Part shown: piece after piece, positions 13,398-21,084 of the stretch | Numbering within the stretch: position 1 is the stretch's first letter | How the letters are laid out: each line of letters begins with the position of its first letter | Assembly (NCBI GenBank): GCA_039801505.1 | Contig: JBDRUV010000001.1 | Span: 124,001-188,000 of the forward strand | DNA length: 64,000 bases | Direction of reading: 5' to 3' | From: a candidate division WOR-3 bacterium | Lineage (GTDB): Bacteria > Hydrothermota > Tepidihabitantia > Tepidihabitantales > CAIPLT01 | The notes under the pieces: generated by a model | The model's input: the letters and a program-made list of their open reading frames with translations, nothing else | Database searches by the model: none | What the model was told of the DNA's origin: nothing | Translations under genes and position numbers: made by a program

Positions 13398-14318
13398 ATG
13401 AAGGTTGCTAAATTAAAAATAAATTATAGAGTAATTGATATTTTACAATTAAATCAATTTATAGGTTCAATTTTACGCGGTGCTTTCGGGTATATTTTTC
13501 GAAAAATTACTTGTCCCAATAAAAATCAAAGATGCTCGGACTGTTTATTAAAGTCAAAATGTATCTATCTTTATATTTTCGAAACCCCGAGGCCTGAAAA
13601 TTCTCAAATTATGCGTAAATATGAAAGCATTCCTCGCCCGTTTATTATTGAGCCGCCCCTCAATAATAAGCAGATATATAAACCGGGTGAAAATTTTATC
13701 TTCAATTTAATTTTAATTGGTAGGGCTATTGAATATATTCCATATTTTATCTATACCTTAGAGGAAATTGGGAACTACGGCATTGGCAAAAATCGCGGTC
13801 ACATGTCCCTTGTTTCGATAACCCAGGGGTTAAGAAAAATTTATAATGGTGGTGACCGCAAAATTCTTGCTAACATTATACCTCAAAAGTTGTCATTGAC
13901 CAAGCCTCGAAAACCGATAAAAAAAATAACGATTAAATTTCTTACACCATTCAGGATTATATATCAAGAAAAACTGACCCAGAGTTTAGATTTCCATGTC
14001 TTAATTCGAAGTCTTTTACGGCGCATTGGTCTTTTGTCTTATTTTCACGCCGACGAGCCATATAAAATTGATTTTAAATACTTAATTTCAAAGGCCGAAA
14101 AAATTCAAACCATCAAGGCCAACCTAATGTTTCAGGAGCAGTATCGATATTCTACCCGTCAACAGCAACGAATATCAATTGCTGGGATGATTGGCGAGTT
14201 TACATATCAAGGGGACTTGACAGAATTTTTACCTTACCTTAAAATAGGGGAAGTTGTTCATGTGGGCAAAGGAACAGTTTTTGGCATGGGGAAATATAAG
14301 CTGGAGGTGATGGAATGA
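13398..14318 (+). CDS. cas6: CRISPR pre-crRNA endoribonuclease Cas6
   Basis: 306 residues of the RAMP-type Cas6 family. An early cysteine cluster (CPNKNQRCSDCLLKSKC, about residues 39-55) probably binds zinc. The C-terminal ferredoxin-like half ends with the glycine-rich VHVGKGTVFGMGKYKLEV loop that grips the repeat RNA. Cas6 cuts the array transcript within each repeat, leaving an 8-nt 5' handle; the repeat's ATTGCGAC end fits such a handle. It is the first gene of the locus and overlaps the large-subunit gene by 4 bases. No Shine-Dalgarno site is visible before ATG 13398. Confidence 0.88.
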   Translation: MKVAKLKINYRVIDILQLNQFIGSILRGAFGYIFRKITCPNKNQRCSDCLLKSKCIYLYIFETPRPENSQIMRKYESIPRPFIIEPPLNNKQIYKPGENFIFNLILIGRAIEYIPYFIYTLEEIGNYGIGKNRGHMSLVSITQGLRKIYNGGDRKILANIIPQKLSLTKPRKPIKKITIKFLTPFRIIYQEKLTQSLDFHVLIRSLLRRIGLLSYFHADEPYKIDFKYLISKAEKIQTIKANLMFQEQYRYSTRQQQRISIAGMIGEFTYQGDLTEFLPYLKIGEVVHVGKGTVFGMGKYKLEVME

Positions 14319-16207
14319 ACGATGAATTGGTCCCTGAAATGCACGATTTATTGAAATTGACAAAATATGGACATCTTGATAGTGATGAAAAGTTAAAAGA
14401 TTTCCAGAAATTTAGAGATTATATCCCCGATAATAAAACTTGGCAAGGCATAATTGGTCATCATTTCTTTGACGAAAATCCTAACTATCCTACGACCCCG
14501 GACCTTTTTATTCTTTCGACTGCCGATCATCTTGCTTCGGGTATTTCGCGGGAAAGCGAACGAAGAATTGGTGATGTCTATAATGTTTATAAACTATGGA
14601 ATCCACCGGTACAGAATATTGACCCTAGACTACAAAACGACAGTGATATTATAGAGTTACTTAAATTTGCTAATAGAAATCCTTCTGGTGAAGATTTTCT
14701 AAATAAATACAAAGATTTACTTAAAACAAGAACTGAAGATGCTGGCAAAGGGAAAAATATATCATCATTGTATACACACAGTCTTTTAACTGGCAAGTTT
14801 TACCGTATATTAAAGAACTCACCTGCCTATAGTATTAACGAAAAGGATTTATGTAAACACAAGTCTGAAGTAAAAAGTCTTCAAGAGAGAAAAGAAATTC
14901 AAGAATGGAAGATGTATGTAATAAGATGTAAGGTTAAGTTTAAGCAGAGGCCGCTAAGAACAAAAGACCTGAATATTTTTTCTGTAATACATCAACTATT
15001 TAATGATTTAAAAGAAACCTGTGCGGATAATATATTTTTTATGAGTAGTGACGAATTGGTTATGTTTTTTCCTGATGCAAATTCAGCACGAACAAAAATT
15101 GAAAAACTTCTTAAATTCGGATTTTATCTTGAGGCAATTAGTACAGAACGACGACTTAACGAAATTACAAATCCAAGATGGATTGCTGAATATGGTGCAA
15201 AGGAATATATTTGGCAAAATTTACCCGCCTCTATTAAGCCTCCAATATGTGAAATCTGTCAGACAGCGAAAGCAATCAAGCATTGGCCAATAGATTACAT
15301 TCTTGAAACAAAAAAAGTTTGTGCTAACTGTCGAAATGTATTGTCTGAATTATCGCTAGATGAAGCCTTTACGCATTTGTGTGAAGAAGACAGACAAAAA
15401 TTATGGGATGTAACAGAAGATACTGCTACCGAAAATTTATGCGAAAATTGTTATAAAATCCGTGCCAACGGTGTAAAGTTATTAAAACTTAGAAATTGGA
15501 CAGAATCCGGCAACACAAAGGTTGTATGGCTAAAAGTAAGTTTAGATTTTGGTCAATTAAGAGATGCGCTTAATAATTTATACAAAAAATATTTAAATAA
15601 ACTTGGTATTACTGACGAAGATGCTCAAGTTAGATTTCCGGTTATTAGTGAATTTCAAGAAGATTATAAAGAATTTATTGATAATTTTAAACAAAACATC
15701 ACCAAGTTTTTTACTGAAGAAAACATTGAATTTATTAGTGAAGATTTAATGTGTATCAAAATTGAAAAACTTTCAGAAATGTTGAAAGTATTAGAAATTT
15801 ATAATAATCTTATTGATAAGTTCTTCCCTAAATTTAAGGATAAAGATATATCGCCAAGTCCAATTAGAATAACTTTAGTTGCCAGTAATTCAAAATTTCC
15901 ATTCTTTGAAGTGTGGGACATTATGGAAAATGCTCAAGAAGACGTTTTGGTCGTACTAATTAATCGTGGAATGATGAAAATAAGATTATGTAATATTGAT
16001 GCTATCGTTACAGCATATCAAGAAGGTTATAAATTTCAGAAGAGTGCATTAGAAAAACTTGCCCGAATAGCTGAAATATCAGAAGAACTTGCCCAAATAA
16101 CCGCTCAGGATAAAAACAATAAGGATTATCCCACCTATGAAAATATGACACATCTCGGCTTGGATTTTAAAAGTCTGCTTACTTTTGCCAAGATCATGGA
16201 GGATTGA
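14315..16207 (+). CDS. Type III CRISPR large subunit, Cas10/Csx11-like, cyclase motif altered
   Basis: 630 residues. An HD-nuclease domain is marked by His10-Asp11, His49-His50 (GIIGHHF) and Asp71 (TADHLASG). A palm-like domain follows, but where Cas10 has GGDD this protein has Ser244-Ser245-Asp246-Glu247 (FMSSDELVMFFP). Zinc-finger cysteines are C312/C315, C336/C339 and C376/C379. The C-terminal SNSKFPFFEVW stretch recalls Csx11 proteins. It should hold crRNA-bound target complexes and may cut ssDNA through the HD site; cyclic-oligoadenylate synthesis looks unlikely. Arginine is mostly AGA, unlike cas1 and the host-like genes, which use CGN. The exact subtype is uncertain. Confidence 0.78.
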   Translation: MNDELVPEMHDLLKLTKYGHLDSDEKLKDFQKFRDYIPDNKTWQGIIGHHFFDENPNYPTTPDLFILSTADHLASGISRESERRIGDVYNVYKLWNPPVQNIDPRLQNDSDIIELLKFANRNPSGEDFLNKYKDLLKTRTEDAGKGKNISSLYTHSLLTGKFYRILKNSPAYSINEKDLCKHKSEVKSLQERKEIQEWKMYVIRCKVKFKQRPLRTKDLNIFSVIHQLFNDLKETCADNIFFMSSDELVMFFPDANSARTKIEKLLKFGFYLEAISTERRLNEITNPRWIAEYGAKEYIWQNLPASIKPPICEICQTAKAIKHWPIDYILETKKVCANCRNVLSELSLDEAFTHLCEEDRQKLWDVTEDTATENLCENCYKIRANGVKLLKLRNWTESGNTKVVWLKVSLDFGQLRDALNNLYKKYLNKLGITDEDAQVRFPVISEFQEDYKEFIDNFKQNITKFFTEENIEFISEDLMCIKIEKLSEMLKVLEIYNNLIDKFFPKFKDKDISPSPIRITLVASNSKFPFFEVWDIMENAQEDVLVVLINRGMMKIRLCNIDAIVTAYQEGYKFQKSALEKLARIAEISEELAQITAQDKNNKDYPTYENMTHLGLDFKSLLTFAKIMED

Positions 16208-16833
16208 TGAGGGTTATCGAATATACTTTAACTGCGGAAACTTTATATATGGGCGAAAGAGAGAAGGCGGGTATATTTAAGCCGTGTTGCCAAACAATTC
16301 GGTACAGTCAAATTACTGGTGCTTTACGCCATAAGTTTGGGAATCAAGAAATACATGCGGTTGGTTATCTGGTTAAAGAAAATGGTTATAATCAGGTCGA
16401 TTATTTAGTCTATTCTCCGCGGGAACGAGTAACTGAAACAAGTAAAATTCCCTTACAAGTAGAATTTTTACGTAATGTAAAAGCAAAAGTTTTTGTACTT
16501 GAAAACGATGCGACAAAAGACCTCCCGAATGAATTTGAGATTTTAATGGGTGGAATGCTTTCGAAAGGGTTTGGTTTATGCAAACTTACTAAAAATAAAA
16601 CATTTGAAGCAGGCAATCCCAATCGAGGTATTCTAAAGACGAGAATTCCTATAGAACCTGAAAAATATTATAAAGAAATTTTTGATATAAGAAAAATATT
16701 AAAGCCAATTTATGGTTATCTTTTTGAACCCGACAAAACCGATCCTTCAACCGGGAAATATGTTTTATCCCTGTTTGAAGGGAGCGAAATAGTCGCGCCC
16801 GATTTTTTAATTGAAAGGGGGAAAAATGGATGA
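16207..16833 (+). CDS. Type III RAMP protein, Cas5-like (Csm4/Csx10-type)
   Basis: 208 residues from the ATG at 16207, whose first base is the last base of the previous TGA. A RAMP (RRM-like) protein: the segment IRYSQITGALRHKFG takes the place of the usual GxxxxGALR loop, and LMGGMLSKGFGLCKL is the glycine-rich RAMP loop. By its size and place between large and small subunits it probably caps the crRNA 5' handle, as Csm4 or Cmr3 do. The assignment rests on motif and order, not on close family recognition. Confidence 0.65.
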   Translation: MRVIEYTLTAETLYMGEREKAGIFKPCCQTIRYSQITGALRHKFGNQEIHAVGYLVKENGYNQVDYLVYSPRERVTETSKIPLQVEFLRNVKAKVFVLENDATKDLPNEFEILMGGMLSKGFGLCKLTKNKTFEAGNPNRGILKTRIPIEPEKYYKEIFDIRKILKPIYGYLFEPDKTDPSTGKYVLSLFEGSEIVAPDFLIERGKNG

Positions 16834-17128
16834 GGTTGATGAAATTATAGAACAAATCAAAAATGATTCTACACTAAAAGGGAATGAATTTTCATCTTCT
16901 ATACTTAACGCTCTTGGTGAAATATTTGAAGAAAAAGGTGTTGGTGCATCAAAGGTATTTCTTTTATCAAAATTTAACGAAGATGACAATGAAAGGAAGA
17001 GATTACTAAAAGTGATATCAATTTTAGAAAAGTCTTCAGCAATAATGCAAGATAGGTCAATTGGAAGATTAATAATAAAAAGTTTAAACCAACTTATAAA
17101 AGGAGGAAATAATGGAAACAATGATTGA
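16826..17128 (+). CDS. Type III small subunit (Cas11/Csm2-like)
   Basis: 100 residues, predicted almost wholly helical and charged, from ATG 16826 after an AAAGGGGG site. Small all-helical proteins at this place in type III operons form the inner filament of the effector (Csm2 or Cmr5). Sequence alone does not prove the family because these subunits diverge quickly. It overlaps the preceding RAMP gene by 8 bases and the following Cas7 gene by 17. An equally long antisense ORF on the minus strand is regarded as a shadow. Confidence 0.65.
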   Translation: MDEVDEIIEQIKNDSTLKGNEFSSSILNALGEIFEEKGVGASKVFLLSKFNEDDNERKRLLKVISILEKSSAIMQDRSIGRLIIKSLNQLIKGGNNGNND

Positions 17129-17939
17129 AACTAGAAAATTAAATATAGTATTAAAGACACTCGAACCTTTTCGTATCGGTGGAATAGAGGATGTCACTTC
17201 AGGGAGAGATAACCCTATCGCTAGAATTGGTGGAAGGTTAGTAATACCCGGAACATCGCTTAAAGGAGCTCTACGAGCTGAAATAGAAAATTATTTAATT
17301 ATGAAATATTGGAAAAACAATAAATGGTTAGAAGAAATGCGTGCGTTTCAACCGTGTATTCCGTCTTCTAAAAAGTTGTTAACACCCGGCGAAAAAAATC
17401 TTCAGGAGATAGGTAAATATAGGAAATTTGCATGTCATTACCCATGTTTTGAAGACCCGTGTGGCGAAGAAAATAAATCTGAAGATACTAAAGATGATCA
17501 AAAAATAAACGAAAAAGAAATGCATACAATATGTCCAGTTTGTTATTTTTTAGGGGCAATGAAATTAATAGGTTTTGTAAGAGTTCCCTTTTTGTATTCG
17601 ACAGTGCGTTACGAAAAATTATACTCTTCTCGATTAGATCGATTAACTGGCAATGTTGTAAAAAAAACCAATCGCCCCTATCAATTGGTGCCTAAGGATA
17701 CAGAATTTTCAGGCGAAATGGAAATAATAATTGAAAACAGGAAACTAGGTTGGATATTGGGACAACCAAGACCACTACCAAATACCCTAGGTGATAAATG
17801 GCTTGAAGGAAATACCAAGACCCAAGACGAATTGATTAAAGAATTCATCATTGACCGATTACAAGCAATTACTATGCTTGGCGGCTATAAATCAAAAGGA
17901 TTTGGGCGGGTAGAGATAAAAGTTAAAGATAACAGTTAG
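17112..17939 (+). CDS. Type III backbone RAMP, Cas7 (Csm3-like)
   Basis: 275 residues. The N-terminal RAMP loops read EPFRIGGIEDV, GRDNPIAR and IPGTSLKGALR, as in Csm3, and the Asp33 in GRDNPI aligns with the Csm3 RNase Asp. A cysteine-rich insert (CHYPCFEDPC, later CPVC) probably binds zinc, and GGYKSKGFGRVEI is the C-terminal glycine loop. Several copies should line the crRNA and cut target RNA at 6-nt steps. An AAAAGGAGG site precedes the ATG. No second Cas7 paralogue (such as Csm5) is present in the locus, so the complex looks unusually simple. Confidence 0.85.
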   Translation: METMIETRKLNIVLKTLEPFRIGGIEDVTSGRDNPIARIGGRLVIPGTSLKGALRAEIENYLIMKYWKNNKWLEEMRAFQPCIPSSKKLLTPGEKNLQEIGKYRKFACHYPCFEDPCGEENKSEDTKDDQKINEKEMHTICPVCYFLGAMKLIGFVRVPFLYSTVRYEKLYSSRLDRLTGNVVKKTNRPYQLVPKDTEFSGEMEIIIENRKLGWILGQPRPLPNTLGDKWLEGNTKTQDELIKEFIIDRLQAITMLGGYKSKGFGRVEIKVKDNS

Positions 17940-17972
17940 CGAAAAGCAGTAAATTTTTTATAGATAAATTTT

Positions 17973-17985
17973 TGCTCTTTGACAA
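17973..17985 (+). promoter_or_regulatory. boxA-like antitermination site before cas1-cas2-CRISPR
   Basis: TGCTCTTTGACAA differs at one position from the E. coli rRNA boxA (TGCTCTTTAACAA). GCTCTTTGA, one differing base, then AATTTGGTA is shared with the 16S leader (33295-33313). It would recruit NusB/NusE-type factors to keep polymerase elongating through the array. Confidence 0.65.
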
Positions 17986-18038
17986 TTTGGTAGTTTAGTT
18001 GGGTCTATAAAATCGCCTGATAAGGAGGTTTGTAGTTT

Positions 18039-19031
18039 ATGGCGACTTTATACCTAACCGAGCAAGGTAGCAAGATTACCCGGACATCGGGGCGATTGGT
18101 AATCAGTAAAGAGGGTGAAGTTATTCAACAGATTCCAATTATAAAGGTCGAACGGATAGTTATCTACGGACGAGTAAAAATTACTATTCCGGTGTTAGAG
18201 TTAATACTGACTGAAGATATTCCTACGGCATTTCTAACTATTGAGGGTCGATTAAAGGGAGTTTTAGAACCGGCGCGTTCCAAAAATATTATTTTAAGGA
18301 TAAAACAATTTGAACGGAGTAGGGATCCTTCGTTTAAACTACAGTTTGCTCGTTCAATTGTGCGTGGTAAAATTTCCAATCAACGACGACTGATTCAAAG
18401 ATTTTCTAGTCACCACCCCGAAATAGATTTTAAGCCCTATCTAAATCAACTGAATTGGCTGAAAGATTCGATTAGCTACGAAACTGCGATTTCTGGTTTG
18501 CGGGGTCTTGAGGGAAAGGCTACAGCGCTATATTTTTCGGCTTACGCTAAACTTTTTAAGGACGAGATCAAGTTTACCAATCGAACACGCCGTCCGCCCA
18601 GGGATCCCGTGAATTCGCTTTTAAGTTTTGGCTATACTATTCTGGTAAACGAGTATTTCTCGTTGCTATCTGCGAGTGGTTTTGATCCATATTTAAGTTT
18701 TTATCATGCAATCGGTTATGGTCGCCCTTCTTTAGCGATAGATTTAGTGGAAGAGTTAAGGCACCCCATAATTGATATGTTGGTTCTGGATTTGATTGGC
18801 CGTCGAATTCTTCGGTTAGAAGATTTTACTGAAAGTCAAGATGGGTTTTATCTTACATCAGAAGGCCGCAAAGCGTTTTTTACTAACTATGAAAGGCGAA
18901 TGAATAGAGAGTTTATTCATCCTCGCGAAAATACCATAACAACGATGCGTAAGGTAATGCGAGATCAGGTCAGCAAGTTATTAGACACGGTGATGACAAA
19001 TAAGGAATACGAGCCTTATCTTATTGGGTAG
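18039..19031 (+). CDS. cas1: CRISPR integrase Cas1
   Basis: 330 residues, the normal Cas1 length. The start LYLTEQGSKITRTSGRLVI is the family N-terminus. The helical catalytic domain shows the metal-ligand regions: GLEGKATALYF (Glu), YHAIGYGRPSLAIDLVEE (His and Glu/Asp) and DL(I)GR following. It joins new spacers into the array together with Cas2. A TAAGGAGG site lies before the ATG. The gene is separated from the effector genes by a 99-bp gap carrying a boxA. Its Arg codons are mostly CGN, unlike the effector genes. No reverse-transcriptase domain is fused. Confidence 0.95.
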   Translation: MATLYLTEQGSKITRTSGRLVISKEGEVIQQIPIIKVERIVIYGRVKITIPVLELILTEDIPTAFLTIEGRLKGVLEPARSKNIILRIKQFERSRDPSFKLQFARSIVRGKISNQRRLIQRFSSHHPEIDFKPYLNQLNWLKDSISYETAISGLRGLEGKATALYFSAYAKLFKDEIKFTNRTRRPPRDPVNSLLSFGYTILVNEYFSLLSASGFDPYLSFYHAIGYGRPSLAIDLVEELRHPIIDMLVLDLIGRRILRLEDFTESQDGFYLTSEGRKAFFTNYERRMNREFIHPRENTITTMRKVMRDQVSKLLDTVMTNKEYEPYLIG

Positions 19032-19043
19032 GAGGGTGGCGAG

Positions 19044-19319
19044 ATGTTTTTATTAGTAAGTTATGATATTATTAACAATCGGCGGCGTTCCAAAGTCTGT
19101 AACATTCTAAAAGATTATGGCAAACGCGTACAGTTTAGTGTTTTTGAGTGTCTACTGGACAGTAAAGATCTAATACGACTTAAAGCGGCTCTATTGAAAT
19201 TAATAAATGAAAAGGAGGATAATCTTCGGATATATCAACTATGTGAAAGCTGTAAGAAGAATGTTCTAATTTATGGGAACACAAAGATAACAGAAGATGA
19301 AGAGGTTTACATTATCTAA
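19044..19319 (+). CDS. cas2: CRISPR adaptation protein Cas2
   Basis: 91 residues with the Cas2 fold signature MFLLVSYDIINNRRRSKV (Asp8 after the first strand), SVFECLLD in the middle, and YQLC followed by a C-terminal strand. Cas2 forms the dimer core of the Cas1-Cas2 integrase. The gene follows cas1 by 12 bases with a GGAGGGTGGCGAG site, and the array begins 93 bases after it. Confidence 0.95.
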   Translation: MFLLVSYDIINNRRRSKVCNILKDYGKRVQFSVFECLLDSKDLIRLKAALLKLINEKEDNLRIYQLCESCKKNVLIYGNTKITEDEEVYII

Positions 19320-19323
19320 ATTT

Positions 19324-19365
19324 TGTACCGACCGGGAAGACCCTAAAAATATCCTAGTCGGTACA
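19324..19365 (+). other. Stem-loop in the CRISPR leader
   Basis: TGTACCGAC (19324-19332) pairs with GTCGGTACA (19357-19365), a perfect 9-bp inverted repeat with a 24-base loop between cas2 and the first repeat. There is no T-run, so it is not a classic terminator. It may be a leader anchoring site for Cas1-Cas2 or a factor-binding site. Confidence 0.5.
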
Positions 19366-19412
19366 TCGGCTACATTAAACCATTTGAAATTTAACGGGTT
19401 ATGGTCCCCACG

Positions 19413-20005
19413 GTCTGAAAACCGCCCCTGGCGAAAAAGGGATTGCGACTTCTCTATAAACTCTTCAGCAACCGATTTTGGAATTCCTTTCGTCTGAAAA
19501 CCGCCCCTGGCGAAAAAGGGATTGCGACTAAAAATACTGAGTAATTCGTTAAGCAAGTTTAACACGCTTGAGTCTGAAAACCGCCCCTGGCGAAAAAGGG
19601 ATTGCGACCGCACTTTCCTGTCGCCCGAGTGCACACAACATAATTCCGATAGTCTGAAAACCGCCCCTGGCGAAAAAGGGATTGCGACCGCACTTCTTTA
19701 ACGCCTCCTCAGCAACCTCCAGATAAGAGTTAAGTCTGAAAACCGCCCCTGCGAAAAAGGGATTGCGACTAATATTAGAGTGAGGCATAAATTTTGGTTC
19801 ATATACTACTGTGTCTGAAAACCGCCCCTGGCGAAAAAGGGATTGCGACCTCTGAAAAATTTTTATCAACTAAAACTACCATTTTTATTCCCCGTCTGAA
19901 AACCGCCCCTGGCGAAAAAGGGATTGCGACGAGGGGAGGGTATGGACACCGTCCCCTCCCCTTACCCTATTTTAGTCTGAAAACTGACCCTGATGAAAAA
20001 GGGTT
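19413..20005 (+). CRISPR. CRISPR array: 8 repeats (37 bp), 7 spacers (42-45 bp)
   Basis: Repeats begin GTCTGAAAACCGCCCCTGGC and end AAAAAGGGATTGCGAC, at 19413, 19492, 19572, 19652, 19734, 19813, 19894 and 19975. The fifth lacks one G (36 bp). The last is degenerate from its eleventh base on and has lost the ATTGCGAC end, which marks it as the distal end. Transcription thus runs in the plus direction, away from cas2. Spacers are 42, 43, 43, 45, 43, 44 and 44 bp. The last spacer (19931-19974) holds an inverted repeat of GGGGAGGG and CCCTCCCC. Confidence 0.98.
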
Positions 20006-20013
20006 ATTTCTTG

Positions 20014-20050
20014 TTGACTATTTTAATTAAAATTTTATAATAACTCCGTA
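20014..20050 (+). promoter_or_regulatory. selD promoter, right-hand copy of the flanking repeat
   Basis: TTGACT at 20014-20019, 16 bp, TATAAT at 20036-20041; the selD ATG at 20050 follows by 8 bp, so the mRNA is nearly leaderless. It is 35/37 identical to 13203-13239 on the other side of the CRISPR-Cas locus. Confidence 0.85.
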
Positions 20051-21084
20051 TGGAGCAGCATAAAAACAAAGGGCTTTTAGCGTTTATTAAGTGTCCGGGT
20101 TGAGCATCAAAGCTTTCGGCGAGCCAGTTGGCTCAAGCTTTGAAGTTTTTACCCCAAACTCTTGATCCCAATCTTTTAGTTGGGGTAAATACTGCTGATG
20201 ATGCCGGGGTTTATAAACTAAACGACGAGTTAGCCTTAGTGTATACCGTGGATGTGTTTGCGCCGGTCGTTGATGATCCCTATACCTTTGGCATGATTGC
20301 CGCAGCTAATAGTATCTCAGATGTTTATGCGATGGGTGGTGATCCCAAACTGGCGCTAAATGTTGTCGGGTTCCCAGCTAAAGCTGATATTAAGATCTTA
20401 GGCGAAATGCTGAAAGGTGCCCAAGATAAAGCTAATGAAGCCGCAGTAGTAATTTGTGGTGGCCATACCTTTGTTTCAGATGAGATTCGGTATGGACTCT
20501 CGGTGGTTGGCTATATTAACCCCCAAAAGATTATTACCAATGCCGGTGCCCAGGTTGGCGATTTGGTGATTTTAACTAAACCGATTGGAGTCGGCACAAT
20601 TATTCAGGCGCAAATCTTAGGTCATCAGGTTAGTGAATATGTGAACGCAGCCGTTAAGTCTATGTCTACTCTAAATAAAGATGCTTCACTAGCGATGCGG
20701 GATTTGGCGCATGCGGCAACTGATATTACTGGTTATGGACTGGCTGGCCATTTAGTAGAGATGGCTACAGCCAGTAATGTGGGTATTGAGCTCTTTTTAT
20801 CCCAAGTGCCAGTCTTACCTGGAGCTTTAGAGATTTTACAGTCCGGCGTAACCGAGCCGGGCGTAATAATGAATCATAACTCGTTTGCAGCTAAAGTGGA
20901 GTCTAGCGAGGGGATTAACGATGATTTGGCAACATTGATTTTTGGTTCTGAAACCTCGGGTGGTTTAGCAATTACCCTTCCTGAAGATAAACTCGATGTG
21001 TTTGCCTCTAAGTATCAAAAAGAATTTTCTGTTATCGGTCGGGTAATTGCCGAAGCCCCGGGTCGGCTTAAATTACGACCTTAA
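20050..21084 (+). CDS. selD: Selenophosphate synthetase, probable selenoprotein (in-frame UGA)
   Basis: An ATG at 20050, 8 bp after a promoter, opens a frame that reads through one TGA (20101-20103) and joins the SelD body, 344 residues in all. The N-terminus reads KCPGU then ASKLS, with Sec at residue 18 and Lys21, which match catalytic Cys17 and Lys20 of E. coli SelD. Next come DPNLLVGVNTADDAGVY, the ATP-binding region, and the GGHT and TDITGYGLAGH motifs of the AIRS fold. The enzyme makes selenophosphate from selenide and ATP. A strong hairpin follows the TGA. Ordinary ORF calling starts at a TTG (20128) and loses the catalytic end. Confidence 0.9.
20107..20143 (+). promoter_or_regulatory. 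SECIS-like hairpin in selD
   Basis: Three bases after the TGA, TCAAAGCTT (20107-20115) pairs with AAGCTTTGA (20135-20143). Inside, GAGCCA (20121-20126) pairs with TGGCTC (20129-20134) around a GT loop, with TCGGC bulged on one side. Size, distance from UGA and the apical G/U fit bacterial SECIS elements bound by SelB. Confidence 0.8.

Follow-up and report, generated by a model that had tools for sequence, protein, structure and literature searches.

A selD gene with an in-frame UGA codon, predicted to encode a selenocysteine-containing selenophosphate synthetase, in a candidate division WOR-3 bacterium

Selenide, water dikinase (SelD, selenophosphate synthetase) has long been known in a form with selenocysteine (Sec) at the active site, and in a survey of 223 prokaryotic genomes, the Sec type accounted for about 19% of SelD genes (PMC4561486). 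Here, we analyzed a 64,000-nt stretch (hereafter the window; G000:C1:124001-188000) from the draft genome, in 57 contigs, of a candidate division WOR-3 bacterium, and describe its selD gene, which is almost certainly functional and predicted to encode a Sec-containing enzyme. The closest described system is the Sec-SelD of Aquifex aeolicus (PDB 2yye and 2zod; profile TIGR00476), natively a Sec protein. The WOR-3 gene shares with it the fold family, an N-terminal catalytic Sec, a Lys three residues further on, and a UGA followed by a bacterial Sec insertion sequence (bSECIS), but differs in host phylum, in its CPGUASK motif (CxxU form), and in its probably leaderless mRNA. Cys-type SelD, as in Escherichia coli, has a similar sequence and the same domain architecture, with C17/K20 in the places of U18/K21, but it carries Cys instead of Sec and needs neither UGA nor SECIS.

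The original prediction, made from the DNA alone, implied a greater novelty than the family allows, since Sec-containing SelD is already well described (PMC4561486, PMC13188914) and the WOR-3 gene is another example of a known selenoprotein. Moreover, the hairpin following its UGA lies wholly within the bSECIS consensus model, with no feature outside it (PMC13188914). The interest of the locus lies elsewhere. WOR-3 and selenocysteine were rarely mentioned together in the literature searched, the coverage of which is incomplete, and Sec decoding has been mapped mainly in cultured phyla; the present data make WOR-3 a well-supported Sec-decoding lineage, with Sec-SelD across its class. In addition, the gene exemplifies how annotation based on stop codons would strip a key selenium enzyme of its active site, and its relatives supply a SECIS with covariation, a leaderless-type promoter that is conserved, and a testable fusion of SelD with a domain resembling ferredoxin-thioredoxin reductase (FTR).

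The selD reading frame and its in-frame TGA

Translation bore out the proposal that the SelD frame extends upstream through one TGA to an ATG: between ATG 20050 and TAA 21082-21084, TGA 20101-20103 was the sole internal stop (Table 1). With TGA read as Sec (U), the product is 344 residues long, carries U at position 18, and begins with MEQHKNKGLLAFIKCPG-U-ASK. The protein matched TIGR00476 at 321 bits (cut-off 125) over residues 11-313, and both the PF00586 (AIRS) and PF02769 (AIRS_C) domains were detected. Its best solved-structure match was the selenide, water dikinase 2yye from Aquifex aeolicus, with 3u0o, E. coli SelD, a close second. Alignment to 3u0o paired U18 with Cys17 and K21 with Lys20, as had been predicted, so that both catalytic residues of the N-terminal loop, Cys/Sec and Lys, are accounted for. 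The window holds 18 candidate TGAs, defined by at least 15 open codons on the 5' side and at least 60 on the 3' side; more than 200 open codons follow this one (326) but none of the others, the next best having 198 and then 136.

Table 1. Features of the selD locus (window coordinates) and of related fusion genes
Feature	Position	Strand	Basis or remark
Sigma-70-type promoter, TTGACT-16-TATAAT	20014..20041	+	11/12 consensus positions; end 8 nt before ATG
selD, selenide, water dikinase, predicted Sec at residue 18	20050..21084	+	TGA=U translation, TIGR00476, PF00586, PF02769; no Shine-Dalgarno, probably leaderless
In-frame UGA, predicted to be read as Sec (residue 18)	20101..20103	+	aligned to E. 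coli SelD Cys17; TGA in 30/30 close sequences, TGT/TGC/TGA in distant ones
Catalytic Lys21 codon	20110..20112	+	alignment to E. coli Lys20
bSECIS hairpin	20107..20143	+	fold, synonymous null 3/2000, three compensated apical pairs in relatives
FTR-like domain fused in frame to Sec-SelD N-terminus (same-class relatives)	L033, L035-L042, L069:518-2365 (-), L070:631-1941 (+)		

Under the standard code, the longest open reading frame (ORF) starts at TTG 20128 and encodes 318 aa, and the first 26 codons, including U18 and K21, are lost; the warning that standard annotation would cut off the active site was thus justified. The existence of this ORF also favors reading the UGA as a real stop, which would leave a 17-residue ORF followed by an N-terminally truncated SelD-like protein starting from TTG 20128 or further in. 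However, neither the catalytic Cys/Sec nor the Lys would be present in such a protein, it is ATG 20050 and not TTG 20128 that the promoter adjoins, relatives that share the TGA conserve the amino acid sequence of the lost segment, and the genome contains the full Sec machinery described below. We therefore consider a real stop very improbable.

Conservation of the codon was evaluated in a comparison set of 150 related genomes. All 47 top-scoring SelD matches contained an in-frame TGA (one in 46 of them, two in the other), and close relatives compared at the codon level kept TGA at the aligned codon in 30 of 30 sequences, followed by ASK, rather than showing a plain stop and a separate N-terminal start. 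The nearest named relatives were the WOR-3 metagenome-assembled genomes SKYB20 (77% identity) and AM-sed-core2-D2_bin-250 (66%), together with a record labelled Latescibacterota (70%). In distant homologues, the Sec18 codon was TGA, TGT, or TGC, with TGT or TGC replacing TGA in L050, L051, L056-L058, and L060-L062. Judged from these alignments, this is the exchange of Cys and Sec expected of a selenoprotein, the UGA being conserved either as UGA or as a Cys codon. The same comparison bears on the possibility of an error in sequencing or assembly at the TGA, or of a pseudogene, for which the fragmented state of the draft assembly could be cited. TGA at the same codon in independent assemblies of relatives refutes an error, and the remaining frame is intact and conserved at the protein level, leaving this explanation with a negligible probability.

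A second TGA in the SelD of G061 (TGFGUAGHL) was rejected as a second Sec; relatives have Leu at this position, and it looks like a base error. Separately, G006, G009, G013, and other genomes of the same order each contained two SelD copies, one with an in-frame TGA and the other without a stop, the latter probably being of the Cys type.

Selenocysteine machinery of the host genome

The prediction of a Sec-decoding host was confirmed by the genome search, in which selA, selB, and the tRNA-Sec gene (selC) were all present, clustered on the window's own contig 1-5 kb before the window start at C1:124001. The selA gene (C1:121918-123288; 545 bits) is a 468-aa ORF and selB (C1:120004-121884; 347 bits) a 639-aa ORF, neither with an internal TGA, and tRNA-Sec (C1:118885-118974; 77 bits) has the anticodon TCA according to ARAGORN. 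The selD start, at C1:144050, lies 20.8 kb beyond selA. Across the comparison set, SelD and SelA occurred together in 55 genomes, SelD only in 8, SelA only in 5, and neither in 82 (Fisher p 3e-26, a value that overstates the case because related genomes are not independent). YbbB, the selenouridine enzyme, was not found in the window genome, and Sec synthesis was the only use of selenophosphate found there; the selenium-cofactor trait was not looked for.

The machinery also bears on genome-wide reassignment of TGA, for example to Trp or Gly, which would equally account for one in-frame TGA being read through. Apart from selA, selB, and a tRNA-Sec with anticodon TCA being present, the TGA occupies the single position where the aligned SelD sequences carry either Cys or Sec, a comparable stretch of downstream coding sequence follows no other TGA in the window, and selA and selB themselves contain no internal TGA. 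Reassignment is accordingly as improbable as an error or pseudogene.

The downstream hairpin and the upstream promoter

The RNA following the TGA folded with -20.6 kcal/mol (z -2.8), and only 3 of 2000 synonymous recodings of the same peptide reached equal stability. Of the two-part hairpin originally proposed, the 9-bp lower stem stood (20107-20115 paired with 20135-20143), but a 2-nt GT loop could not sterically close the 6-bp apical stem, which was corrected to 5 bp (20121-20125 with 20130-20134) closed by a 4-nt AGUU loop located 22 nt after the UGA. A 5-nt bulge (UCGGC) on the 5' side joins the two parts. Published limits for bSECIS elements comprise a loop of 3-9 nt with G within its first two positions, an upper stem of 4-16 bp, a spacing of 16-37 nt, and a minimum free energy of at most -7.5 kcal/mol (PMC13188914), and the selD hairpin falls inside every one of them.

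Furthermore, the apical stem was conserved with compensation. In 23 relatives it reads GCGC-AGUUG-GCGC or a variant, with compensatory changes at three of six apical pairs (GC to UA, GC to AU, and CG to UA) and no equally good result in 500 shuffles; this count covers just these 23 sequences, whose register is not that of the window's own hairpin. The window species and its genus-mate carry GAGCC-AGUU-GGCUC, with the register shifted by one base, and owing to this offset between the window's nearest relatives and the rest of the class, counting pairs in a fixed register failed for the whole set. The loop GUU was present in all 30 sequences read.

Several observations weigh against a Sec-containing SelD. 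Outside the window species and its nearest relative, the long lower stem is not well formed. The bare bSECIS test (at least 5 bp plus a loop G) was passed by 458 of the 1054 TGA triplets in the window; this rule was dropped as evidence because it is unspecific, and it is therefore conservation and machinery, not the hairpin alone, that carry the case. Eight SelD-positive genomes gave no SelA match, several of them being incomplete or fragmented. Finally, no second selenoprotein was found among six families tested one by one in the window genome: formate dehydrogenase alpha gave a distant match only, with no TGA in the matched stretch, and FlpD/MvhD, HdrA, NiFe/NiFeSe hydrogenase, peroxiredoxin, and FTR had no in-frame TGA within their matched stretches. 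Taken together with these points, the evidence still leaves a functional selD with Sec at residue 18 as the almost certain reading. As a separate observation, hdrA and an MvhD-like flpD are adjacent at G000:C2:279744-281600, neither with an in-frame TGA.

A consensus promoter 8 bp before ATG 20050, as originally noted, was recovered. No Shine-Dalgarno sequence was seen. With a transcription start some 7 nt downstream of the -10 box, the mRNA 5' end would fall at or beside the ATG, so the selD mRNA is probably leaderless. Of 25 sequences compared, 14, that of the window being one of them, had a promoter scoring 10-12/12 at 5-8 nt before the selD start; the spacer was always 16 nt, and such promoters were matched in 0-3 of 500 shuffles. 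The promoter position is conserved in these 14 sequences, suggesting that the leaderless mRNA is conserved as well. Five other ORFs in the window had the same layout compared with 0.6 expected, and a promoter next to the ATG therefore appears to be customary in this genome and not a speciality of selD. No description of a leaderless selenoprotein mRNA was found in the literature searched, of incomplete coverage.

Based on these features, the following route may be proposed. RNA polymerase would start at or a few bases from ATG 20050, yielding a leaderless mRNA. The ribosome would meet the UGA at codon 18, where the hairpin, through its AGUU loop, would recruit SelB with GTP and Sec-tRNA(Sec), and Sec would be inserted. 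Like their counterparts in other SelD enzymes, Sec18, in a mobile N-terminal loop, and Lys21 would then help to make selenophosphate from selenide and ATP, and the product would supply SelA to form the Sec-tRNA required for translating selD itself, closing a feedback loop.

SelD fusions in relatives and the CRISPR neighborhood

In nine relatives (G028, G029, G041, G049, G050, G052, G054, G056, and G062), as well as in the second copy of G051 and a partial copy of G061, the selD frame extends upstream by about 100-160 codons. The additional N-terminal domain matched Pfam FeThRed_B, the FTR catalytic chain (five copies were tested, with E values from 4e-14 to 2e-16), and shows the cysteine pattern CPC...CPC...CHC. 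The prokaryotic SelD fusions named in PMC4561486 are with NADH-dehydrogenase-like and NifS-like domains, nearly all on Cys-type SelD, and FTR is reported as a separate selenoprotein family in PMC2398784. The literature searched, of incomplete coverage, yielded no description of a fusion between FTR and Sec-type SelD. In the window genome, the FTR-like gene is separate from selD, has a rubredoxin-like tail, and lies beside a glutaredoxin-like gene, these names coming from reading of the sequence. We tentatively raise the possibility, which we regard as rather unlikely, that selenophosphate synthesis in WOR-3 is coupled to ferredoxin-derived electrons via an FTR-like iron-sulfur module. This module, which at least nine relatives of the same class carry fused to the N-terminus of Sec-SelD and which would be a stand-alone protein in the window organism, might hold the catalytic Sec in its reduced state or generate selenide locally. 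In two other genomes, SelD was found within open frames of 735-748 codons without TGA (G072:C13 and G147:C74), probably the known NADH-dehydrogenase-like fusion.

Directly upstream of selD, at about 13398-20010 of the window, a clustered regularly interspaced short palindromic repeats (CRISPR) locus was recognized by reading, with RAMP-type Cas genes, Cas1, and Cas2 followed by the array. A terminator-like hairpin overlaps the final repeat of the array (about 19976-20010), which is degenerate. The locus thus sits between selAB and selD, and in several relatives the distance from selAB to selD is about 3-17 kb.
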